DNA of 64,000 nucleotides, taken from NCBI GenBank assembly GCA_013214705.1, contig JABSRZ010000005.1, positions 62,001 through 126,000 of the forward strand, in the 5' to 3' direction. The position numbers were made by a program, and so were the translations under genes. The stretch's first letter is position 1. Every line of letters starts with the position of its first letter. The DNA comes from Hyphomicrobiales bacterium. Its GTDB lineage: Bacteria; Pseudomonadota; Alphaproteobacteria; Rhizobiales; OSC116. Positions 43,987-61,457 of this stretch are shown here, piece after piece. The notes below the pieces were generated by a model. It worked only from the letters and a program-made list of their open reading frames with translations, ran no database searches and was not told the DNA's origin.

Positions 43987-44934
43987 TCAAAACAGTTCTG
44001 GTAACGCGCGGCGCACGGCACTCGCTAGAGTTTGGACATCATCAATAGAAGCACCATCATAAGGCCATAACAATCGCGGTCCAATTGGTCCCCACTGTCC
44101 GATTGCGGCCAATAGTTTATCCAGCGCCGGATCGGATAATGTCTTAGTTCTAGCTAATGGAAAGACATATTGTTCGAAGAATTCGTTAATACGGGCTTCC
44201 AGCTCTATCGCTGCATCTAGATCGGTCTCGATCATCTGCCAGTGCCGTGTTGCGCCTTCTGGGCTGATACAAGCAACATTTGAATAGGAACCGTCGGCGC
44301 CTAATGGGCGACCAAATGCAACTTTATGGCCAGGAACGAAAACCGACAAGTTTGGATGTAGGTTTTGCAGATCAGAATACCAACACTTGTCACCAGCGGC
44401 GAGTTTAACACCAACCAGATTGGGAATCCGTTTTTGAAGAACGTCGATTTGGTGTAAATCAAGACGAACTTTTGCGTGAGGCGGGTTGTAGAGAATGATT
44501 GGAGTTTGCCCGGCAACCTCTTGCATCCCATCGACAAATCTTTCGATTTCAGCCCACGAAGGTGGCCACCAATCCGGCAGTGTAATCTGCACAGCATCAG
44601 GAGACAGCGCCGCCACCTGTGCAAACCTATTGCGCGCTATACGCGGATTTGAGTTACTAACACCGATTTGAAACGGTTTGCCTTGCTTCTTAGCAGCCTC
44701 AGCAACGATACCGGTGACTTTTTCAAATTCAGCTTCTGTTTGGTTGTAAAATTCACCAGCTGTTCCGTTTGTATATATGCCAGCGAGGTTGCTGGCACAC
44801 AAAATTTCGACCTGTTCTTCGAAGTCCTGCCAGTTAATTGATCCGGAATTATCAATGGGTAACAAAACGGAGCCCCAAATGCCTTTAGGCGCTTTTTCGG
44901 TGTCTATTGGTGTATGACTTGTTGGGCTTGCCAT
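43987..44934 (-). CDS. DapA-family (dihydrodipicolinate synthase-like) lyase
   Basis: A 315-residue class I aldolase-fold enzyme. The Schiff-base lysine is in LVGVKLAAGD near residue 172, the catalytic Tyr in PIILYNPPHAKV, and the substrate loop is TNGTAGEFYNQTEAEF. The last feature resembles sugar-acid dehydratases or lyases more than true DapA. It is the last gene of the minus-strand arm, after the class IV aminotransferase. GGGAGG lies before the ATG at 44934. Substrate unknown. Confidence 0.85.
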   Translation of the reverse strand: MASPTSHTPIDTEKAPKGIWGSVLLPIDNSGSINWQDFEEQVEILCASNLAGIYTNGTAGEFYNQTEAEFEKVTGIVAEAAKKQGKPFQIGVSNSNPRIARNRFAQVAALSPDAVQITLPDWWPPSWAEIERFVDGMQEVAGQTPIILYNPPHAKVRLDLHQIDVLQKRIPNLVGVKLAAGDKCWYSDLQNLHPNLSVFVPGHKVAFGRPLGADGSYSNVACISPEGATRHWQMIETDLDAAIELEARINEFFEQYVFPLARTKTLSDPALDKLLAAIGQWGPIGPRLLWPYDGASIDDVQTLASAVRRALPELF

Positions 44935-44983
44935 TTTAACCTCCCTTTGGCTAGACATTTCGATCGCAACATTGATTCCAGAT

Positions 44984-45901
44984 TCAATCCTTAAGTTGAT
45001 TGCGTGCTTGTTCGATTATGTCGAGACCAACCAGATCGCTCCATGCGGCCATTAACTTTTTTGTAACAGGACCGACCCTTCCGTCACCAATTGTTATGCC
45101 GTTAAATCGCGTCGCTGGCATGATACAATAGGGTGTACTGGTGAAGAAGACTTCGTCAGCTGTCGCAAGATCGTAGGGTTGTAAAATGGTTTCCTCGGCT
45201 GTGATTCCAAGTTTTTTTGCGAGTTGTAAGGTCGTTTCGCGCGTTATACCTGCAAGGCAATTGCCCGTCGTCGGCGTCTTTAATACGCCGCCGGTTACTA
45301 CAAAAACATTACCGCCTTTGTTTTCGGAAACATTGCCGTAGATATCCAAAATCACACTCTGGGCATGGGGATCAATCAGCTTCACTTCTGCTTCGGCGAG
45401 TGTGTATGCCATTCTACTCCGGTTTTTTATGCGCGCATCCATTGACTGGCTTGGTATCGCGCGGCTCATAGGCGTAACTGCGTGGCAACCGTCAATATAA
45501 AAGGGCGCCCAGCTGCGCAAATCCATCGGCTGCACGAATATCATGACTGTGGCTTCGTTTGATGTTGAGGTTGGATCAGATCCGGCGATCGAAATTCCAC
45601 GAGATATATTATGAACCAACCAGCAATCTTCTGACGCACCATACTCTTCCAAATTTGTGTTCAGAACCTCTAGCGAAATGCGCAACATTTCTTCTTTACC
45701 GTACCCGATATCGTTGCGCACCACTTTAAGAGATTTGTATAAACGCTCGATATGTTCTTCAAGTTTAAACGGCTTGTGAAGGAATGTGCGTGTCGACTCT
45801 GTGACTGTATCACCCAACATCACAGCACTATCAAAGATGGATATTTTTGCTTCATTTTCAGGGACAAGCCTGCCAGAAATGTGTACAAGGTTCTTTCGCA
45901 T
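44984..45901 (-). CDS. Class IV (fold-type IV) PLP aminotransferase
   Basis: A 305-residue enzyme of the branched-chain/D-amino-acid aminotransferase family. The PLP lysine is in MDARIKNRSRMAYTLAE, and the C-terminal signature TADEVFFTSTPYCIMPATRFN matches the family's cofactor-phosphate region; GNVSENKGGNVFVV is also typical. BCAT, D-amino-acid aminotransferase and ADC lyase cannot be separated by eye. It lies between the class III aminotransferase and the DapA-like gene, suggesting amino-group removal in a catabolic pathway. AGGAG precedes the start. Confidence 0.88.
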   Translation of the reverse strand: MRKNLVHISGRLVPENEAKISIFDSAVMLGDTVTESTRTFLHKPFKLEEHIERLYKSLKVVRNDIGYGKEEMLRISLEVLNTNLEEYGASEDCWLVHNISRGISIAGSDPTSTSNEATVMIFVQPMDLRSWAPFYIDGCHAVTPMSRAIPSQSMDARIKNRSRMAYTLAEAEVKLIDPHAQSVILDIYGNVSENKGGNVFVVTGGVLKTPTTGNCLAGITRETTLQLAKKLGITAEETILQPYDLATADEVFFTSTPYCIMPATRFNGITIGDGRVGPVTKKLMAAWSDLVGLDIIEQARNQLKD

Positions 45902-45927
45902 GGAATACTCCTAACTTGACATCGGAT

Positions 45928-47232
45928 TTAATTTAATCGACTAAACCCACTATGAGCGATCGGACCATTTAACAAACTAGTGACATCCAACCCTTCCTCA
46001 CATGTTTTGATTTGTGCAAATATTGGATCTAATGCATCGAAATATCCAGATAGGACTTCCGGCGTATGGGCAGTACAAACATAGACACTGTTAGACGACA
46101 GATAGCCTTTTTTAAGCATTTCCTGGGTTATGAGTGTTTTGTATGCTTGTGCATTTTCGCTGACGAAGGCGAAGCTGGTAAGCGATGGCAACCCGCTTGT
46201 CTTAATCAGCAAATCGTATTTTTTGGCAAGCTCCTGCCAGCGACGGGTTATGGTTTTCCCGGTTTCAATTATAGCCGACCATGGGTTCTCATTTTCCATT
46301 ACATTAAGCGTTGCGAGCGCGGCGGCGGAACCGATGCGTTCTGTCCAGAACGTACTAGAGATAAACGTGCTTTGGGCTGCCTGCATGACCTCGCTCTTAC
46401 CGATTACCGCGGTACATGCGTAACCGTTCCCTAGGGCTTTTCCAAACACCGCCATATCGGGTGTCACGTCAAAAGTTTTGTGTAGTCCGCCAAAATTTTG
46501 CCTAAATCCAGATGTGCACTCGTCAAAAATAAGCACAATTCCGTTTTTAGTCGCGATGTCTCGAACTTTATGTAGGAAATTATCTTCAGGTGGGAAGTTG
46601 CGCATAACCTCCATTTTGATGACGCCAATGTCGCTATTCTTAATTAAGCCTTCTAAACCTTCAAAATCATTATATTTGAATGGCAATACACTACCACGTA
46701 GGTTTTGTGGGACGCCATTTGGGTCAAGACCCGGCAAAAGGTGGCCATCTAGGTCGTCACCTTTCACTAAATTGGTTGCGAGGTACCAATCGTGCCAACC
46801 ATGATACCCACAAATGGCAACATTATCTCGTCCACTGGCAGCGCGGGCTATTCGGATCGCAATTGCGTTCGCTTCACCGCCAGTGCGGGCAAAACGCGCC
46901 ATGTCCGCCCACGGATGAATATCAATCAATCGCTCCGCTAGCGCGACTTCTTCAGGTGCGTTTAAGGTAGAAAGGTTGCCGCTCATGGCGGCTTTGCAAA
47001 CGGCCTCGTCAACTTCTGGACGGCCGTATCCCAGAACGTTGGCCCCAACGCCCATAATCGACATATCGACGTATTTTACACCATCAAGATCCCAAACATT
47101 ACAGCCTTTGGCGCGACTATAATAAGCCGGCCATTGTTCGGGCAAAAACATTTCCGGACGTTTTGACAGCAACATATTACCGCCGGGTATTAATGTTTTA
47201 GCTTTTTCCCAAAGCTTTTGACCTTTATCCAT
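45928..47232 (-). CDS. Class III PLP aminotransferase (glutamate-1-semialdehyde aminomutase-like)
   Basis: A 434-residue fold-type I enzyme resembling HemL: ARFARTGGEANAIAIRIARA, GYHGWHDWYLA, VLIFDECTSGFRQNFGGLH, and the PLP lysine in AVFGKALGNGY. The catabolic neighbourhood and moderate divergence argue against haem biosynthesis; such HemL-like proteins also act on amino-sugar substrates. It lies between the lyase at 47246 and the class IV aminotransferase. Confidence 0.87.
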   Translation of the reverse strand: MDKGQKLWEKAKTLIPGGNMLLSKRPEMFLPEQWPAYYSRAKGCNVWDLDGVKYVDMSIMGVGANVLGYGRPEVDEAVCKAAMSGNLSTLNAPEEVALAERLIDIHPWADMARFARTGGEANAIAIRIARAASGRDNVAICGYHGWHDWYLATNLVKGDDLDGHLLPGLDPNGVPQNLRGSVLPFKYNDFEGLEGLIKNSDIGVIKMEVMRNFPPEDNFLHKVRDIATKNGIVLIFDECTSGFRQNFGGLHKTFDVTPDMAVFGKALGNGYACTAVIGKSEVMQAAQSTFISSTFWTERIGSAAALATLNVMENENPWSAIIETGKTITRRWQELAKKYDLLIKTSGLPSLTSFAFVSENAQAYKTLITQEMLKKGYLSSNSVYVCTAHTPEVLSGYFDALDPIFAQIKTCEEGLDVTSLLNGPIAHSGFSRLN

Positions 47233-47245
47233 TTATTTAGCCCCG

Positions 47246-48172
47246 CTAGATCGCATCAAGAAAAGCGACGCCCTCAAGCTTGTGGTTTTGCATTAATTGG
47301 CGACACTTTTCCTTTAATTCTGCTTCTTCATTGCTGGTGAAATTGTCGAAGGGTTTGCGACAGTAACCTGCATCCGCACCCTGCCAAGCCATCGCGCGTT
47401 TGATAAACGATACGCCTTTGTTAGCGATTCCAAAAAATATTATCTTATTTACCACCTCCTGAAGATGTTTGGCCTTACTCATATCGTTTTCTTTGACTGC
47501 CTTACAAAGTTCGATAATCACTTCAGGAATCATATTGTAGAACGAACCGATAAGTCCGTCTGCACCATACATCAAACCTGACATGGCCATCTCATCTGTG
47601 CCAGAATACACCATGAAATCGGGCCCAATTTCTTCTTTGATGCGGAGAAAATCGAATTGTGTAGGCGCAGTGTATTTGATCCCCCCAACACCCTTGATAC
47701 TTGAAAGATTCATGATTTGCTCAAATCCCATAAGACCAACCAACGGGATATTATATATGATCATCGGCAGATCAGTTGATTTGGTTAAATCGGTGTAATA
47801 ATTTTGAATCATATTTGATGTGAATGGCCAATAAAACGGAGGCACAGAGGACAATGCATCAACTCCATTTTCCTGCGCGTGTTCTGCCAAATCAACCGAA
47901 GTATGCGTGCCGATCGCGCCAATATGTGCGATGACGGGCAAACGGCCTGCTGTTTCATCAACGACGACTTCCAAAACTCGTTTGCGTTCCTCAGGAGACA
48001 TAAGAAATGCTTCGCCTGTACTTCCGGTAATGTAAAAACCATCGACTCCGCGATCTATCAAAAAATTTATTATCCCTCGCATTCTTTTTTCGTCAAACTT
48101 TTCGTTTTCATCGAAAGGGGTGACGAGGGCTGGCATGACGCCAGTTATATTCTTTAGCTCAAATTTTGGCAT
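47246..48172 (-). CDS. N-acetylneuraminate lyase-like aldolase
   Basis: A 308-residue DapA-superfamily enzyme closer to sialic acid lyase than to DapA: VMPALVTPFDENEKFD, FYITGSTGEAFLMSPEER, VPPFYWPFT, the catalytic Tyr in PMIIYNIPLVG, the Schiff-base Lys in VGGIKYTAPTQFD, and YSGTDEMAMSGLMYGADGLI. Sialic acid lyases split N-acetylneuraminate into pyruvate and N-acetylmannosamine. Related nonulosonic or ketodeoxy sugar acids are equally possible. It sits directly after the transporter genes. GGAG precedes the start. Confidence 0.85.
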   Translation of the reverse strand: MPKFELKNITGVMPALVTPFDENEKFDEKRMRGIINFLIDRGVDGFYITGSTGEAFLMSPEERKRVLEVVVDETAGRLPVIAHIGAIGTHTSVDLAEHAQENGVDALSSVPPFYWPFTSNMIQNYYTDLTKSTDLPMIIYNIPLVGLMGFEQIMNLSSIKGVGGIKYTAPTQFDFLRIKEEIGPDFMVYSGTDEMAMSGLMYGADGLIGSFYNMIPEVIIELCKAVKENDMSKAKHLQEVVNKIIFFGIANKGVSFIKRAMAWQGADAGYCRKPFDNFTSNEEAELKEKCRQLMQNHKLEGVAFLDAI

Positions 48173-48199: not shown

Positions 48200-49219
48200 T
48201 TAAATTGATTCGGGCAAATCTATCAGGTGGCAGGAAGCAAAATGGTCGTCACCATCAATTGAATATCGCTTCAGCGCCGGCACATCTGTTTTACAAATAT
48301 CCACAGCGCGGTGGCACCGTGGATGAAACGGGCAGCCGCTGGGAGGATTGATGGGACTTGGTACATCGCCATTCAGCACAATACGTTTGGTTTGTTTGTC
48401 TAGATCAGCGACGGGAATGGCTGATAGCAATGCCTCTGTATATGGATGCAAATTGTTAGAATAAAGCTCCTCGGAGCGGCAAAGTTCGACAATTTTACCA
48501 AGATACATAACGGCAATGCGGTCGCATATATATTCTGTAACGCTTAAGTCATGTGTGATGAATATATAAGTAAGATTCTTTTCTTCTTTTAGCTTCATTA
48601 ACAATTGTAGAACCTGCGCTTGAATGGAAACATCCAATGCGCTGACAGCTTCGTCGCAAACGATTAGCTCTGGCTCTACGCTTAATGCACGTGCAATACC
48701 GATGCGCTGACGCTGGCCACCCGAAAACTCGTGCGGGTAGCGGTCCATATATTCGCGGCGCATATTCACGGCTTCCAGCAGATCACCAATGATTTCGCGT
48801 CGTTTTGCCCGTGATTTCACGCCATATTTCTTGAGTGGGTCCTGCAGTGATCCGAAGATTGTGAAGGCTGGGTTAAGTGACGAATGTGGGTCTTGAAAAA
48901 CTATTTGTAAAAGCTTTCGAAACGGTTCCAAACCCTGCGCATTAAGCTTGACGAGGTTGGTGACCTGATCTCCCGAGTGATAGTTGATGTCGCCATTGGT
49001 TACAGGAACGAGACTTAGAATGGATTTTCCAAGCGTAGTTTTACCGCAACCACTCTCTCCAACAAGCCCTAGAACTTCGCCTCGAAAAACATCGATATCA
49101 ATACCGTCCACTGCCTTTACATGCGCTACAGTTCGTTTGAATATACCAGCCTTGACTGGAAAATACGTTTTCACACCGCGTAAACTCAGGATTATTTCTT
49201 TACTGTTATTTTTTTGCAT
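48200..49219 (-). CDS. Dipeptide-type ABC transporter ATPase, DppF-like
   Basis: A 339-residue ATPase that energises the importer. Walker A is GLVGESGCGKTTLGKS, the Q loop is IVFQDPHSSLNP, the signature is EFSGGQRQRIGIARAL, Walker B is LIVCDEAVSALDVSIQAQV, and the switch His is in FITHDLSV. The oligopeptide-type C-terminal extension carries GCPFHPRC. The start lies inside the upstream ATPase gene by 14 bases, with AGGAG ahead of it. Confidence 0.95.
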   Translation of the reverse strand: MQKNNSKEIILSLRGVKTYFPVKAGIFKRTVAHVKAVDGIDIDVFRGEVLGLVGESGCGKTTLGKSILSLVPVTNGDINYHSGDQVTNLVKLNAQGLEPFRKLLQIVFQDPHSSLNPAFTIFGSLQDPLKKYGVKSRAKRREIIGDLLEAVNMRREYMDRYPHEFSGGQRQRIGIARALSVEPELIVCDEAVSALDVSIQAQVLQLLMKLKEEKNLTYIFITHDLSVTEYICDRIAVMYLGKIVELCRSEELYSNNLHPYTEALLSAIPVADLDKQTKRIVLNGDVPSPINPPSGCPFHPRCHRAVDICKTDVPALKRYSIDGDDHFASCHLIDLPESI

Positions 49220-50222
49220 TTGGCAATAACTCCTGGTAGCGCCAGCACATAACTCGATGGGTTTTGTCTATGTAACTTTCATCCGGCATAACATCACATG
49301 CATCGACTGCATAACTGCACCTCGGGGCAAACTGGCATCCAATCGGTCTGTTATATGGATCTGGAGTCGAGCCAGGTATGGGTTCGATAATTTGATCTTT
49401 ACCCATACCAAGCACCGGTATGGAATCTAGTAGAGCTCTGGTATAAGGATGAACAGGGTTGCGCAAGACTTGGTCAACTGTCCCTGCTTCTACAATATTA
49501 CCCATATACATTACCGCAACGTTGTCAGCCAATTCGGCCACCACCCCCATATCATGGGTAATTAACATAATCGCCGTTCCATGATCAGTTTTCAACTTTT
49601 CCATCAATTCGAAAATCTGTGATTGAATGGTTACATCTAGCGCTGTTGTCGGCTCATCCGCTATTAGAATTTTGGGATTGCATGACATGGCCATGGCTAT
49701 CATTGCACGTTGACGCATTCCGCCAGAAAAAGTATGCGGATAATCATCGATCCGCATTTCGGGTAATGATATGCCCATGTTTCGAAGCAGTTCGATGGTC
49801 TTAGTACGGATTTGTTTTCTATCCAAATCGGTGTGGTATTTTAGGCTTTCGCCTATCTGAAAACCAATCGTATAAACTGGATTAAGTGCGGTCATCGGGT
49901 CCTGGAAAATCATTGCAATTTCAGAACCACGTATTGAGCGCATTTTTCGTCCGTTGGGCTCTAGCTCTTCAATCGAAATGTCACCCGCATCACTGTGATA
50001 GGTAATCTCGCCTTGCTCGATGCGTGATAATTTCGGTAGCAATTGCATAATAGTGGACGCAGTCACGCTTTTACCGCAGCCGCTTTCTCCAACGATACAC
50101 AAAGTTTTGCCTTTCTCGATCTCAAAGGAAACTCCATTTACGGCCTTGTTACAGCGGCTATTTGTATAGAAATATGTTTTCAAATCTTTAACGCTAAGCG
50201 CCACGTTTGGATTATTTGTCAT
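49206..50222 (-). CDS. Dipeptide-type ABC transporter ATPase, DppD-like
   Basis: A 338-residue ATPase. Walker A is CIVGESGCGKSVTAST, the Q loop is MIFQDPMTALNP, the signature is TFSGGMRQRAMIAMAM, Walker B is ILIADEPTTALDVTIQSQ, and the switch is LITHDMGVV. The C-terminal extension has the Cys-containing GCQFAPRCSYAVDAC. With the DppF-like ATPase it forms the heterodimer. It follows the permease after three bases. Confidence 0.95.
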   Translation of the reverse strand: MTNNPNVALSVKDLKTYFYTNSRCNKAVNGVSFEIEKGKTLCIVGESGCGKSVTASTIMQLLPKLSRIEQGEITYHSDAGDISIEELEPNGRKMRSIRGSEIAMIFQDPMTALNPVYTIGFQIGESLKYHTDLDRKQIRTKTIELLRNMGISLPEMRIDDYPHTFSGGMRQRAMIAMAMSCNPKILIADEPTTALDVTIQSQIFELMEKLKTDHGTAIMLITHDMGVVAELADNVAVMYMGNIVEAGTVDQVLRNPVHPYTRALLDSIPVLGMGKDQIIEPIPGSTPDPYNRPIGCQFAPRCSYAVDACDVMPDESYIDKTHRVMCWRYQELLPNAKK

Positions 50223-50225
50223 GTT

Positions 50226-51140
50226 TTAACCTTGCTGGGATGGGTCGGTCGCATCGCGAAGACCATCCCCAATAAAATTGACGCTAAGAACAAACACGGA
50301 AATTACCGTACCGACCGGGAGCCACATCCACCAATAATTTTGCAATACCCGCAAATCTTGTGCAGTGTTCAAAATATTCCCCCAAGTCGGAATATTTAAC
50401 GGTACACCCAGTCCCAGATAACTTAGTCCTGCCTCAGCCAGAATAAATGCGGCAGTTGACAAGGTTATATTTACCATGACCGGGCCCAAAGCATTGGGAA
50501 GGATGTGTTTGTAACAAATCGAGGCGGTTGAAAGCCCGAAACTTTGCAAGGCCTGAACATATTCTTCTTCGCGAAGTGACAGCATTTGCGCGCGTGCCAT
50601 TCGATACATACCGCCCCAGCCGGTTAGAATGAAAATAATCATCAAGTTTAGAAGACTTTGGCCAATAATCGATACCAATAGTAAAACCAGAATAATTTGC
50701 GGGAAGGACATAAATAACTCAGAAACACGCAATGCCAACACATCAATCCAACCACCCTTGAAGCCTGTATAAGCACCAATAATGATGCCGATTACTGCAG
50801 AAATCAGGCCACTGCCGAGCCCAACAAGAATTGACACTCGACCGCCATACAGCACCCGGGCAAATACATCGCGGCCCGTTTTATCTGTACCAAACCAATG
50901 TTCGGCAGAAGGCGCTTTTGAAGCATTGCGAAGGTCTATTTTCAACGGGTTTGCATCCGTCAGAAGCGGCGCAAATATCGCGGAAAATAGGATTATAGAG
51001 AATAATATTATACCTAAGACCGCCAAACGATTGTTAAGCAATTTAGCTAACGCTCGGTTGCGCCTGCTGGGCGAAAGCTTTTGAGCCTCTTCCAGTTCGA
51101 GAATACGATCAAATTTTCGGTCTAAAGAACGACGTGACAT
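50226..51140 (-). CDS. Dipeptide-type ABC transporter permease, DppC-like
   Basis: A 304-residue membrane protein with an N-terminal cytoplasmic stretch, a first membrane segment (LAVLGIILFSIILFSAIFAPL), and the binding-protein-dependent transport domain (FGTDKTGRDVFARVLYGGRVSILVG; EAA loop near LREEEYVQALQSFGLS). Six membrane segments are expected. GAGGGG precedes the start. It pairs with the DppB-like permease 10 bases upstream in the operon. Confidence 0.94.
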   Translation of the reverse strand: MSRRSLDRKFDRILELEEAQKLSPSRRNRALAKLLNNRLAVLGIILFSIILFSAIFAPLLTDANPLKIDLRNASKAPSAEHWFGTDKTGRDVFARVLYGGRVSILVGLGSGLISAVIGIIIGAYTGFKGGWIDVLALRVSELFMSFPQIILVLLLVSIIGQSLLNLMIIFILTGWGGMYRMARAQMLSLREEEYVQALQSFGLSTASICYKHILPNALGPVMVNITLSTAAFILAEAGLSYLGLGVPLNIPTWGNILNTAQDLRVLQNYWWMWLPVGTVISVFVLSVNFIGDGLRDATDPSQQG

Positions 51141-51150
51141 TAAGAACCCC

Positions 51151-52110
51151 TCAGTTCAATCTTACGCGAGGATCGATTAGCGCCGTTAAAACGTCGATAA
51201 TCAAACTAGCCATTAGCACAGCAAAAACAGAGAACAGCGCAATCATCATCACAAGTGGGTAATCCGATCCACGCACAGCAGTGATAAATTCATTGCCTAT
51301 CCCCGGCCATTGGAACACTTGTTCAATGATAACCGAGCCGCCAATTAGGAGTGGCAAACGGAAACCAATCAGCACTACGACCGGCGTCAAAGCTACCCTA
51401 AAACCGTGCAGCAAATTTATCCTCCATTCGGGCAATCCTTTGGAGCGTGCTGTGATAATAAAGTCACGGGTCAAAGCGTCTAGCATTGACGAACGCGAAT
51501 AGCGCATTACGCCAGCAGTCATCATTAATGACAAAACCATAGCCGGCAAGACGATGTGGGGGGCTCTATCCCAAATAGTTTCATATCCTGGCATCAAGCG
51601 GCCGCCGGCAGGCAACCAACCCAAATTAAGCGCAAAAATCAGCATGACCGAAAGGCCAAAAAGGAATTCTGGGACCGAAACCCCGAGCATTCCGAATACG
51701 GTCAGGAAATTGTCTGTTGGAGACCCACGACGCAAGGCACTAATTGTGCCCAATATACATCCAATAATTGTTGAAAATAGCAGTGCCACAAACGACAGCT
51801 CTAACGTGGCAGGTAAGCGATCTAGGAAAATAGTAGCTATTGGCACTCCACCTGCAAGCGAATGCCCAAAATTTCCTTGAAAAATATTGCCCAACCAAAT
51901 CACATAACGGACCAGAAACGGGTCATTAAGACCGTAGGATTCACGTAGGGCCTGTAACTGTTCGGGCGTTATTCTACTTGCGACCTCTGGATTGATAAGC
52001 GATGAAACCGCGTCACCTGGTGTAAGTTCTAGCCCTAAATAGACCAAAAAGCTTATTACCACCAACATCGGGATCAGAACAAAAATGCGTCTGATTACAT
52101 ATACAAGCAT
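51151..52110 (-). CDS. Dipeptide-type ABC transporter permease, DppB-like
   Basis: A 319-residue membrane protein: N-terminal anchor YVIRRIFVLIPMLVVISFLVY, then LRESYGLNDPFLVRYVIWLG (typical of DppB), the transport domain with the EAA loop DFIITARSKGLPEWRI, and the C-terminal VFQWPGIGNEFITAV. It starts 81 bases after the binding protein gene. Confidence 0.94.
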   Translation of the reverse strand: MLVYVIRRIFVLIPMLVVISFLVYLGLELTPGDAVSSLINPEVASRITPEQLQALRESYGLNDPFLVRYVIWLGNIFQGNFGHSLAGGVPIATIFLDRLPATLELSFVALLFSTIIGCILGTISALRRGSPTDNFLTVFGMLGVSVPEFLFGLSVMLIFALNLGWLPAGGRLMPGYETIWDRAPHIVLPAMVLSLMMTAGVMRYSRSSMLDALTRDFIITARSKGLPEWRINLLHGFRVALTPVVVLIGFRLPLLIGGSVIIEQVFQWPGIGNEFITAVRGSDYPLVMMIALFSVFAVLMASLIIDVLTALIDPRVRLN

Positions 52111-52191: not shown

Positions 52192-53814
52192 TTACTTACG
52201 TGAGAACTGATTAATCCAAATCATACGCGTGTAAGGAATATCCACTGGGATCACCCGCATGAAGTCTAGTGCCTCAAGCGAGGCAACGTCACCCGTATTC
52301 TTGGTGAAACCGTAATCCATACGACCTGCAGTAGCGTTTTTGATCAGATTTGCGTCGCCATCGTAACTTGGGAAGGCAACAATCTCATCAATTTTCGCAA
52401 CACCACCATGGTAGTTCTCAAACGGAACGTAGCGTGTAAAGTCGTTCATTTGAACTTCTTCGATTTTGTATACGCCTGAGCCGATTGGATTCTGCCAGAA
52501 CGGATCTTGTTGGAACTGTAGTGGATCGGCGTTTTTCAGCAGATGCTCAGGTAAAATCGCGAATTGACCGAAGGTGATCAATAAGTTTGGATCCAACGTA
52601 TCAAAGCTAAGGTTGATGGTGTTGCCATCGACCGAGATGCCGCTAACCGAATCGGCAGCACCGCTCTCATAAGCTTCAGAGCCTGTGAGCGAGGTAAACG
52701 TATTGCGCACAACTGCATGTATCGTTGGAATGCGCAACGCAGTTTCGATGCTGAACTTAACGTCATCTGCCGTCAAGGCCTCACCATCGTGCCAAGTCAA
52801 ACCGTCTTTAAGTGTAAAGCTTGCGGTCAAACCATCGGCGCTAACCTCATAGCTTTCAGCCATGGACCCACCTATTGGATTAAGAGCACCATCAACTTCA
52901 AGAAGGCGGTCAAACACGATTTTCGTCGTCATCCAGATTCCCAGATTTAGCCACGGCGCTTCAAAAAATTGAGCAGGTGCTGTATTTGTGTACATTACCT
53001 TTTTACCGTTCTCATCTGGGGTTACAGTCCAGTTTTCAATGCCCCAATTGTAGTTATACTGGTCGTTACCATACGCACCACCATTACGATTCACGCGGTC
53101 ACTCTCAAAGACGAACAACTGTTGGTAATAGAGCGGAATGGAATTTAGGTTTTCGCTCCAGTATTTTTGGATGGCAAAATATCCCTCCTTTTGCACTTCA
53201 GGGTCAGAGCTAGAATTAATCTTAGCGATTAACGCGTCGCGCTCAGCATTACCTGGTGTGTGTGAAACCCCACCAGTTTTATAAGGGTTGAAATATTCCT
53301 GCCCTACCAGAGCGGCAGCAGCACCATAACCCAGATCCCAAGTGATATTTGCAGGACCGTTCACCGCATCATCCGGCTTCGCTGTTAGCTGTGCACCAAC
53401 ATCACCCTGTAGCTGACGATAGGTTATTTTAATGCCCACATCCGCTAGATATGCTTGAACCGCGGCCATTAAGTCGGCGGTTAACTGGTCGCCGTAATAA
53501 TAAACCAAATCAAGTTCCCGGCTCGTATCCCAGTCTGCAGCCGCAAGTAGTTCGCGGGCTTTTTCTGGGTCATACGAGTATGGGTTTAACCCATCAGGCT
53601 TATTTGGACCGTTTGGTAGCATACTATCTGCAACAAGAGCGCGTCCCTCGAGCAGGGTCTCTACAATGGTGTCCATGTCGATGGCATAAGCAATAGCTTG
53701 CCGAACACGAGGATCGGACAGCGCCTCGCTGTTAATCGTTTCTGCAGACACCAAACTTGTGCCTGACATAAACATGGCTGTTGCTAGAGCAACACCGGCT
53801 AATTTTTTTAACAT
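52192..53814 (-). CDS. Circularly permuted family-5 solute-binding protein
   Basis: A 540-residue periplasmic binding protein of the transporter. A signal peptide ends MSGTSLVSA (residue 24). Directly after it comes SDPRVRQAIAYAID (33-46) and YSYDPEKARELLAAADW, which in DppA/OppA-type proteins open the C-terminal part of the protein. That half ends near NWTVTPDENG (261-270). Only then come the normally N-terminal elements: KIVFDRLLEVDGALNPIGG, GLTWHDGEALTADDVKFSIE (near 338), ILPEHLL, NPIGSGVYKIEEV, and NATAGRMDYGF, ending at WINQFSRK where a normal protein would continue into SDPRVRQA. Mature length (516) equals an intact family member. The ATG at 53814 has GGGAGAAG upstream; earlier in-frame ATGs lie in a tandem repeat. 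Confidence 0.93.
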   Translation of the reverse strand: MLKKLAGVALATAMFMSGTSLVSAETINSEALSDPRVRQAIAYAIDMDTIVETLLEGRALVADSMLPNGPNKPDGLNPYSYDPEKARELLAAADWDTSRELDLVYYYGDQLTADLMAAVQAYLADVGIKITYRQLQGDVGAQLTAKPDDAVNGPANITWDLGYGAAAALVGQEYFNPYKTGGVSHTPGNAERDALIAKINSSSDPEVQKEGYFAIQKYWSENLNSIPLYYQQLFVFESDRVNRNGGAYGNDQYNYNWGIENWTVTPDENGKKVMYTNTAPAQFFEAPWLNLGIWMTTKIVFDRLLEVDGALNPIGGSMAESYEVSADGLTASFTLKDGLTWHDGEALTADDVKFSIETALRIPTIHAVVRNTFTSLTGSEAYESGAADSVSGISVDGNTINLSFDTLDPNLLITFGQFAILPEHLLKNADPLQFQQDPFWQNPIGSGVYKIEEVQMNDFTRYVPFENYHGGVAKIDEIVAFPSYDGDANLIKNATAGRMDYGFTKNTGDVASLEALDFMRVIPVDIPYTRMIWINQFSRK

Positions 53815-53826
53815 AACTTCTCCCAT

Positions 53827-53874
53827 TTGTTGTGACCTCGCGGCCATTTTTTGTTGTGACCTTGCGGCCATTTT
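53827..53874 (-). repeat. 24-bp tandem duplication before the binding-protein gene
   Basis: Two adjacent 24-base units (53827-53850 and 53851-53874) differ at one base. They contain ATGs in frame with the binding-protein gene, so a longer reading would begin with a repeated MAARSQQK. The true ribosome site is downstream of both units. The repeat may be a scar of the rearrangement next door. Confidence 0.85.
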
Positions 53875-54107: not shown

Positions 54108-54833
54108 TCATCTCGCTCCATTTGTCATCTGGCGGGCTAATGCTTGACGAAAATACGAGCCGTAATTTCGAGTTAAGTGACAGGTAAGGATTTCAACGGC
54201 CTTATCTGCCTCTTTGTCCAATATCGCCTCGACAATCTTTTTGTGTTCATCGTTACTGGATTTATTTAGGGTTGCAAAATCGTCTAATACCGGGCGGTTT
54301 TTCATCAATCGCTCTACAAATGTTGCATGCAGCGCGACAAAAATTGGATTACCGGGTACTTCAGCCAAAACCCGGTGGAATTTCACATCGGCATTTCTAA
54401 AGCCTTCGATGTCCGAAATATGTTTGTCACACTCTTCAATAGCGCTAACCATTTTGGCGATCTGCGCATTAGTTGCGTGGACCACCGCATAGCGCAACAT
54501 ACTGGTTTCTAGAAATAGACGGGCTTGCTCAAGATGTGCATTACCTTCGCTTCCGTTAAAGAAAAATCCGGCGGTTTCGCCCAATCCTTCCATCACTTGG
54601 CCTAAAGATGGTGCAAGCACACGTGGACGTTTTCCTTTGTTGTGATCTGCAAGGGTCATGCCTTGTAGGATTGTGAAAGATTCGCGCACCACGTTTCGGC
54701 CAACACCATATTGCTCACATAAAATACGCTCAGATGGGTACATATCGCCCGCAGACAATTCACCATCATGCACACTAGCTGCAAGGATTTTGGCTATTTC
54801 TGCTGCGGTAATTACTTTTCCCATATCTCTCAT
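54108..54833 (-). CDS. FadR-type GntR transcriptional regulator
   Basis: A 241-residue regulator. The N-terminal winged helix is LSAGDMYPSERILCEQYGVGRNVVRESFTIL (split here as SAGDMYPSERILCEQYGV and GRNVVRESFTIL), and the C-terminal FCD ligand-binding domain has ARLFLETSMLRYAV, DVKFHRVLAEVPGNP and LTCHLTRNY with metal-ligand histidines. FCD regulators of this kind respond to sugar acids or related carboxylates. It lies between RraA-like and transporter genes and is a good candidate to bind the palindrome at 55692. The start may be 54833 or 54824. Confidence 0.9.
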   Translation of the reverse strand: MRDMGKVITAAEIAKILAASVHDGELSAGDMYPSERILCEQYGVGRNVVRESFTILQGMTLADHNKGKRPRVLAPSLGQVMEGLGETAGFFFNGSEGNAHLEQARLFLETSMLRYAVVHATNAQIAKMVSAIEECDKHISDIEGFRNADVKFHRVLAEVPGNPIFVALHATFVERLMKNRPVLDDFATLNKSSNDEHKKIVEAILDKEADKAVEILTCHLTRNYGSYFRQALARQMTNGAR

Positions 54834-59366: not shown

Positions 59367-60176
59367 ATGTCACAAAAACCATATACCGCCGGACCAAAAA
59401 CCAACTTCGAAATGCGAGAGAGCCGTGTTTTACGCACAATTCGTGAAGGAAAGGTCGCAAAAGTTCTAAAACTCAACCTTTCAGACGCTAAAGTAGCGGA
59501 AATTTTTGCCATAGCCCAACCAGACGCGATCTGGCTGTGCATGGAACATACCTCGACTAGTTTTGAGGCAATTGAAAACCAGATACGTGCCGCAAAAATC
59601 CATGATGTCGACTCTATCGTGCGCGTAGCACGCGGCAGTTACAGCGATTACGTTCGGCCTTTGGAAATGGACGCTACAGGGTTGATTGTACCACATGTAG
59701 TAAGTTTGTCAGACGCAACGGATGTGCGCAACATGACCAAGTTCGCACCGGTGGGAAAACGCGCGGTCGATGGTGGAAATACTGACGCTATGTTTACGCG
59801 GGTAGGATTCTTGGATTATCTGAAAACGGCCAACAAAGAACGTTTTGTTTGTTATCAAATAGAAGATCCTGAAGCTATGGATGATCTAGATGCCATTGCT
59901 GAACTAGAGGGTGTTGATGCTCTCTTCTTTGGTCCAGGCGATTTCTCGGTTGCACTCGGTATACCGGGCGAAATCAATTCGCCCCAAATCAACAAAATGC
60001 GCAAACGTGTGGCAGACGTTGCGCGAAAAAACGGCAAAATCGCCGCAACGGTGAGTGGTCCAGATACCGTAAAGGAATACGCAGATCTCGGATACAATAT
60101 GCTTAGCGTCGGCGCCGATGTAATTGCACTGACTCAGTATGCCGATAAAATGCTAGCAGCATTCGACGAGGTATAA
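59367..60176 (+). CDS. HpcH/HpaI family aldolase
   Basis: A 269-residue class II aldolase. Typical segments: AIAQPDAIWLCMEHTSTSFE, SIVRVARGSYSDYVRPLEMDATGLIVPHV (catalytic Arg in VRVARG), FVCYQIEDPEAMDDLDAI (metal ligand Glu) and VDALFFGPGDFSVALG. Family members cleave 2-keto-3-deoxy sugar acids or related hydroxy-oxoacids to pyruvate. AGGGG precedes the start. Confidence 0.91.
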   Translation: MSQKPYTAGPKTNFEMRESRVLRTIREGKVAKVLKLNLSDAKVAEIFAIAQPDAIWLCMEHTSTSFEAIENQIRAAKIHDVDSIVRVARGSYSDYVRPLEMDATGLIVPHVVSLSDATDVRNMTKFAPVGKRAVDGGNTDAMFTRVGFLDYLKTANKERFVCYQIEDPEAMDDLDAIAELEGVDALFFGPGDFSVALGIPGEINSPQINKMRKRVADVARKNGKIAATVSGPDTVKEYADLGYNMLSVGADVIALTQYADKMLAAFDEV

Positions 60177-60179
60177 CCC

Positions 60180-61457
60180 ATGAAAACGAGTTCGATTCGA
60201 AAATCTATAGTTGACCGGCGGACAAAAGGCATTCCAGGTACAACGGCCCCCTTTGCGCTTGAAAAAATAGAAAGCCAAGGTTGGAATGTTCTGTCAGAAG
60301 ACATGCCGCTACCATTAATGGTGTTGAAACAAAGCAATCTGAACTACAACATCGAGCTTTTTGGGGATTATTTACAAAAAAACAATCTGTCGCTTGCCCC
60401 TCATGGTAAAACGACGATGAGCCCGCAGATTTTTGAACAACAGCTTCAGTATGGTGCATGGGGAATCACTGCGGCAACAATCGACCAATTACTGGTTATG
60501 CGCGATTATGGTGTGGAGCGAATAATCTTGGCGAACCAATTAGTCGGCAAGTCGAACATCTGCACCGTCGCTCAAGAAATAAATGGCGATCCGGATTTCG
60601 AATTTTTCTGCTTTGTTGATTCATCAGAACAGCTGGACAACATCGCCGAAAACCTTGCTAACTTAAAACTGTTGCGGCCTATCAATCTGCTTATTGAGGT
60701 TGGCGCGGTTGGAGGGCGCACTGGTGTTAGGAATAAATCTCAAGCGTTAGATCTTGTACAGAAAATACTTGAGATGCCTGATCTATTTAAATTTACGGGA
60801 ATCGCTGCTTTTGAAGGTGCCATTCCTGGTCTGGGTAAAAGTGCGCATCCAATAACAGAATACTCAGATTTAGTATTGGAAATCGCTCGTCAAATACCAG
60901 AGCATGCGTATGCTGAACTGGATGAATTCATTTTGACTGGCGGCGGTTCAGCGTATTTTGATATTGTAATTGACCGCTTCAAAACGTTGAATTTGTCAGT
61001 TCCGGTGCGCATAGTGCTGCGCAGCGGTTGTTACGTTACCAATGACCATGGAGCTTATTTTACGGCTCAAGAACAAGCGCGCCTGGATCCAAACCGGCAC
61101 TGGACCCAAAAGTTTCGACCTGCATTGGAAATCTGGTCGTACGTACAATCGCTACCCGAACCTAGGTTAGCATTTTTGACCATGGGAAAACGAGATATCC
61201 CCTTTGATGCTGGTCTTCCAACACCATTTAAGCGTTATCGCCCCAATGTAGGATTTCTGGACGTCGGTGAATGCGAGGTTTTTTCCACAAACGACCAACA
61301 TGCCTATGTCAAATATGATGACGAAAATGACTGGCGCGTCGGTGATATGATTTGTTCAGGTATTTCACATCCCTGTACCGCATTCGACAAATGGCGAATT
61401 ATCCCCGTAGTCGATGATGACTACAATGTAATTGATGCCTATCGGACATATTTTTAG
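60180..61457 (+). CDS. D-serine dehydratase / D-threonine aldolase-like PLP enzyme
   Basis: A 425-residue fold-type III enzyme. The PLP lysine lies in LSLAPHGKTTMSP near residue 75; LLIEVGAVGGRTGVR and ILTGGGSAYFD follow; the metal-binding pair is in SGISHPCTAFDKW near the C terminus (His and Cys, as in zinc-dependent eukaryotic-type D-serine dehydratase). It would act on a beta-hydroxy D-amino acid. It is the last gene of the plus-strand arm, three bases after the aldolase. Confidence 0.87.
   Translation: MKTSSIRKSIVDRRTKGIPGTTAPFALEKIESQGWNVLSEDMPLPLMVLKQSNLNYNIELFGDYLQKNNLSLAPHGKTTMSPQIFEQQLQYGAWGITAATIDQLLVMRDYGVERIILANQLVGKSNICTVAQEINGDPDFEFFCFVDSSEQLDNIAENLANLKLLRPINLLIEVGAVGGRTGVRNKSQALDLVQKILEMPDLFKFTGIAAFEGAIPGLGKSAHPITEYSDLVLEIARQIPEHAYAELDEFILTGGGSAYFDIVIDRFKTLNLSVPVRIVLRSGCYVTNDHGAYFTAQEQARLDPNRHWTQKFRPALEIWSYVQSLPEPRLAFLTMGKRDIPFDAGLPTPFKRYRPNVGFLDVGECEVFSTNDQHAYVKYDDENDWRVGDMICSGISHPCTAFDKWRIIPVVDDDYNVIDAYRTYF

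Follow-up and report, generated by a model that had tools for sequence, protein, structure and literature searches.

Evidence for a naturally circularly permuted cluster C solute-binding protein in an Opp/Dpp-type ABC importer

Can the solute-binding protein (SBP) of an Opp/Dpp-type ABC importer be encoded with its two halves in exchanged order and still be a working receptor? The question is raised by a gene at positions 52192..53814 on the minus strand of the window (the whole 64,000-nucleotide stretch of Hyphomicrobiales DNA that was analysed), which a preliminary description made from the sequence had read as encoding a circularly permuted binding protein. The reading frame starts with an ATG at 53814, immediately preceded by GGGAGAAG, and ends with a stop codon at 52192-52194, giving a protein of 540 aa; the open frame extends upstream as far as another ATG at 53871. 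A 24-bp tandem repeat (TTTGTTGTGACCTCGCGGCCATTT, second copy 96%) at 53826-53873, just 5′ of the SBP start, makes the frame longer upstream of the likely start and could be the operator of the NanR-like regulator described below. A Sec signal peptide read from the sequence occupies aa 1-24 (53743..53814, minus strand), with probable cleavage between VSA and ETINSEA, and the mature protein of 516 aa is close in length to mature DppA (507 aa), as expected from the earlier statement that it matches an unpermuted family member. The permuted reading is now borne out by crossed profile matches, crossed structural alignment and homologues of the same order, and we estimate at about 0.92 the probability that the gene encodes a natural, circularly permuted, working cluster C (SBP_bac_5) SBP of an Opp/Dpp-type ABC importer.

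The protein was matched by PF00496 (SBP_bac_5) with an E value of 1.2e-60 (206 bits against a cut-off of 32.4), and no cluster B family was matched in Pfam at E up to 1. The match is crossed, with the first half of the protein falling on model positions 210-328 and the second half on positions 5-207 of the 368-position model. The same pattern was obtained with a profile built for the order test from 23 unpermuted family members and DppA, and from no permuted proteins: residues 49-285 of the open frame aligned to model positions 326-555 and residues 288-557 to positions 55-325, with zero overlap, as the preliminary description had anticipated for its two halves. Segment A (aa 32-269; 53008..53721, minus strand) is the counterpart of a normal protein's C-terminal half, and segment B (aa 270-540; 52195..53007, minus strand) of its N-terminal half. 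With this profile the order was crossed in 52 of 52 distinct permuted proteins and normal in 23 of 23 unpermuted relatives; the canonical order, N-terminal model half first, was found neither in the window SBP nor in any of the 52. One protein (L042) has an additional signal-peptide match beside its two crossed blocks, leaving 51 two-block cases, in which the blocks overlap by 0-27 model positions, mostly by fewer than five. Because this overlap is small and the blocks meet at a shared breakpoint near model position 325/326 (in the examples displayed), one pair of junctions is common to all permuted members. Chance similarity or a mosaic of two domains is ruled out by the complementary, almost non-overlapping profile coverage together with the single breakpoint. 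Sequence matches in the PDB were crossed as well (for example 8upi, with window SBP residues 293-479 on 36-219 and 32-241 on 283-497), and no permuted cluster C member was found among them. Judged by sequence, the window SBP is best classed as a permuted variant of SBP_bac_5/cluster C and not as a canonical member. Automatic annotation can mask such a topological change, since the profile match appears normal unless the order of its parts is inspected.

Unpermuted sisters of the permuted proteins were also found. The SBP of Proteiniclasticum ruminis (L054, NZ_FOVK01000005) contains the same regions as the window SBP in normal order, and the two proteins align crossed, window SBP residues 258-538 on 60-338 at 45% identity and 32-264 on 347-581 at 51%. 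A second unpermuted sister (L090, genome G260) is 62% identical to the P. ruminis protein, and more distant relatives (L091-L094, L109 and L123-L125) are likewise unpermuted. The P. ruminis operon encodes the SBP, two permeases, two ATPases and a NanA-like lyase, and in both sisters the SBP gene has the operon position, and the operon the gene order, seen with the permuted proteins (SBP-B-C-D-F-lyase). Compared with the P. ruminis protein, which has a normal chain with a likely N-terminal lipid anchor on lobe 1, the permuted proteins lack the leader and the spacer ahead of VMYTN, and the old end is joined there by a linker such as TPDENGKK, which in the window SBP spans aa 265-272 (52999..53022, minus strand) and connects the old C- and N-termini; the permuted chains are opened inside a loop that reads NKFKGADGKVSPLADVRVRQA in P. 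ruminis. A group of permuted proteins with unpermuted sisters of about 50% identity in an identical operon amounts to a natural before-and-after experiment on chain order, one that bears on how the protein folds, is secreted, moves at its hinge, is anchored by lipid and docks to the transporter.

Structure prediction with AlphaFold2 and 37 natural permuted sequences gave a pLDDT of 93.9 and a pTM of 0.90, with 96 for the blocks at the new linker. When the model was aligned with VIA-align 2, residues 240-507 fell on residues 1-243 of NikZ (Z 22.3, rmsd 2.6, 240 aligned) and residues 3-238 on residues 255-499 of NikA (Z 19.8, rmsd 3.2, 223 aligned), whereas a model of the P. ruminis protein aligned to the same proteins over its full length with a TM of ~0.8. 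The swap is thus visible in the structural alignment of the predicted model, and each half aligns to cluster C structures at Z 19-22, which agrees with the normal two-lobe fold that had been expected. Ordinary oligopeptide-binding proteins have their N- and C-termini close together and their lobes bridged by two segments; in YejA the lobes comprise residues 1-286 with 540-579, and 287-539, and the bridges residues 282-287 and 540-542 (PMC10924461). These bridges map by alignment to window SBP aa ~519-528 and ~230-238. When lobes are assigned from the published YejA boundaries, segment A would pass through lobe 2 and then the last part of lobe 1, and segment B through the rest of lobe 1 and then the first lobe-2 strand. 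The mapping suggests that both crossings are kept, giving two, the normal number for cluster C, and lobe 1 would form one continuous segment, with lobe 2 bearing both chain ends, the N-terminus having moved there. The cut would lie ~12 residues beyond the first lobe crossing, on the lobe-2 side; this refines the preliminary description, which placed the termini at the crossover between the lobes, whereas they are probably inside lobe 2. A natural opening near the hinge could inform sensor design.

The permuted form is widespread across phyla. The 52 distinct proteins with the same order and breakpoint, which satisfy the expectation of homologues in related genomes and add distant ones, come from Pseudomonadota, Spirochaetota, Bacillota, Myxococcota and KSB3-type lineages, some of them from complete isolate genomes. 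Scanning bacterial and archaeal genomes gave 49 loci, of which almost all show one collinear match to the permuted query, and the permuted order was found at ~47 loci in several phyla, some of these loci lying on complete chromosomes of Devosia and Breznakiella. Carriers include Rhodobacteraceae, Devosia and other Pseudomonadota, Spirochaetota, Bacillota (Acidaminobacter, Dethiosulfatibacter), Myxococcota and KSB3/UASB270. Among sampled Spirochaetia ~15 of 297 genomes carry the permuted form; among evenly sampled Alphaproteobacteria it is only two of 385, counting the genome of the window, and the distribution there is therefore patchy. Plasmid homologues were not found at E up to 1e-30. Two local irregularities were observed. 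The permuted SBP gene of Devosia algicola (L049, 6001-7700) matches as three separate pieces, reflecting either a frameshifted gene or a sequence error, and a spirochaete subgroup (L103, L107 and L108) has a longer C-terminal tail (PHPANIK-like) past the hinge strand, and the linker that joins its halves is about three residues shorter than usual.

Downstream of the window SBP, on the same strand, lie intact genes for all four Opp/Dpp-type partners, in agreement with the earlier reading: a DppB/OppB-type permease (51151..52110; NCBIfam Opp4B, 273.9 bits, below the cut-off of 450), a DppC/OppC-type permease (50226..51140; Opp4C, 335.1 bits, below the cut-off of 350) and, by NCBIfam, DppD/OppD-type (49206..50222) and DppF/OppF-type (48200..49219) ATPases. 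The next gene (47246..48172, minus strand) encodes an N-acetylneuraminate-lyase-like aldolase scoring above the cut-off for NF003164 (290.1 bits against 281) and below that for nanA TIGR00683 (254.5 against 382). A NanR-like GntR/FadR regulator (54108..54833, minus strand; NF003011, 185.8 bits, below the cut-off of 260) is encoded upstream of the operon and is conserved in proteobacterial relatives. The order SBP-B-C-D-F recurs in nearly all permuted members, and in many of them the gene that follows encodes the NanA-like lyase; in Rhodobacteraceae and Devosia the operon borders on the NanR-like regulator gene and a dehydrogenase gene block. A second arrangement was observed in L016, L020 and L027-L030, where the lyase-family gene, 32-36% identical to the window lyase, does not follow the ATPases but is found upstream, on the other strand. 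Past the window lyase and in the same orientation, 43987-47232 encodes what by eye are two aminotransferases, one of class III and one of class IV, and another DapA/NAL-family protein; these genes hint at a pathway for amino- or keto-sugar acids. On the far side of the dehydrogenase block, 59367-61457 encodes, again by eye, an HpaI-type aldolase and a protein resembling D-threonine aldolase/D-serine dehydratase.

The label 'dipeptide-type' given to the operon in the preliminary description holds for the family but probably not for the cargo. R383 and D436 of DppA hold the ends of the dipeptide (PMC12136057); R383 is replaced by Tyr and the D436 loop is deleted throughout the 52 permuted proteins, as well as in those unpermuted relatives that were examined, and the DppA equivalog NF043070 scores the window SBP at 64.5 bits against a cut-off of 1005. 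Because these dipeptide-binding residues are absent, the cargo is probably not a dipeptide. The nearby lyase, aminotransferase and sugar-dehydrogenase genes instead suggest a sugar acid or keto acid, and we infer a cargo of this or a similar kind. Conservation over large distances (41-70% identity to the window SBP among the relatives compared), intact operons and the predicted fold make ligand binding and transport plausible, and the earlier view of the window SBP as a functional binding protein is consistent with all three.

As the computation shows, the old N- and C-termini, which lie near each other in ordinary relatives, are joined by the linker of ~8 residues, and the chain is opened in the loop directly after the first lobe-2 strand, corresponding in DppA to a cut between YNVQKK and PLDDVKVRQA. 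In the explanation that we favour, a normal Venus-flytrap fold and cleft would be retained. The protein would be exported by the Sec pathway and, in those Bacillota relatives with an N-terminal lipid anchor, would be tethered through lobe 2 rather than lobe 1. On closing around its ligand it would deliver it to the B/C permeases, powered by the D/F ATPases. The permutation probably arose in an ancestor of the operon family, in the simplest case as a single event, and then spread across phyla.

A single gain is the simplest account, given that every more distant relative is unpermuted. The SBP tree unites the permuted proteins with the two unpermuted sisters in one clade (100/99), with short deep branches and no firm order among the first of them, and a tree of the four transporter proteins (B, C, D and F) is similar. 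An alternative interpretation is that the permuted form is ancestral to the clade and that the Proteiniclasticum and G260 sisters either reverted or acquired an unpermuted SBP gene in place of their own. Both sisters do lie within or among permuted groups in the best SBP and BCDF trees, and the permuted members never formed one clade in BCDF bootstrap trees, but we consider this interpretation unlikely because the deep branches are short, a tree constrained to one permuted clade is worse by only 1.8 log units in both the SBP and the BCDF data and is not rejected (AU P = 0.33 and 0.34) and the more distant relatives are all unpermuted. A change of chain order in both directions, by permutation and then a return to normal in the Proteiniclasticum lineage within the same operon, is quite unlikely; if it did take place, topology would be evolutionarily switchable in a working transporter.

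As to how the gene arose, the separability of the halves in sequence, with almost zero overlap, would also fit a fusion of two separately encoded half-proteins instead of tandem duplication and trimming. We regard such a fusion as rather improbable because no split-gene relatives were seen and because both ends of the permuted protein carry a short copy of one loop (N-x-x-P-L-x-D at the start, I-N-x-F at the end), a pattern of only a few residues that fits a trimmed tandem duplicate. A search of the window SBP gene for a duplication scar yielded only the upstream 24-bp tandem repeat and short matches, none of which records the permutation. It is very doubtful that the permutation served membrane anchoring as an adaptation that shifted the lipid tether to the opposite lobe, the explanation proposed for the treponemal protein TpMglB-2: a lipobox precedes lobe 2 in some members (L042, L043 and L098) and TpMglB-2 homologues are mostly tethered (PMC4990184), but a simple pattern finds a plausible lipobox in few of the 52 proteins, the proteobacterial majority, including the window SBP, have ordinary signal peptides, and the unpermuted P. 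ruminis protein is itself likely to be a lipoprotein (LAGC). Finally, although the window comes from a draft assembly of 45 contigs, misassembly or sequencing error is untenable because independent assemblies, complete isolate chromosomes among them, share the identical two junctions across 52 distinct proteins, with signal peptides properly positioned at the new N-terminus.

Among bacterial nutrient receptors, cluster C SBPs make up a very large group, and in the literature searched (open-licence papers) no permuted member was reported. The preliminary description's statement that it knew of no described permuted family-5 protein stands to that extent, but a precedent exists in another cluster, and we rate the permuted sub-class of cluster C as new and natural SBP permutation as already known in cluster B. 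That precedent is TpMglB-2 (Tp0684) of Treponema pallidum, a 'Type Ic / Cluster Bc' ABC-importer SBP with a natural circular permutation, found in treponemes and Gram-positives, which binds glucose and changes conformation, and whose permutation, according to its authors, may relate to membrane tethering (PMC4990184). Compared with Escherichia coli DppA and with NikA/NikZ, the window SBP has the same fold in each half (Z 19-22) and the same kind of transporter, but differs in chain order and does not conserve R383 and D436 of DppA. With TpMglB-2 it shares the property of being a naturally permuted ABC-importer SBP. TpMglB-2, however, has a cluster B fold, with the permutation inside the N-lobe sheet and a fourth lobe crossing added, whereas the window SBP belongs to cluster C, is opened on the lobe-2 side of the hinge and apparently keeps both crossings, and most members of its clade, unlike the TpMglB-2 homologues, are not lipoprotein-like.
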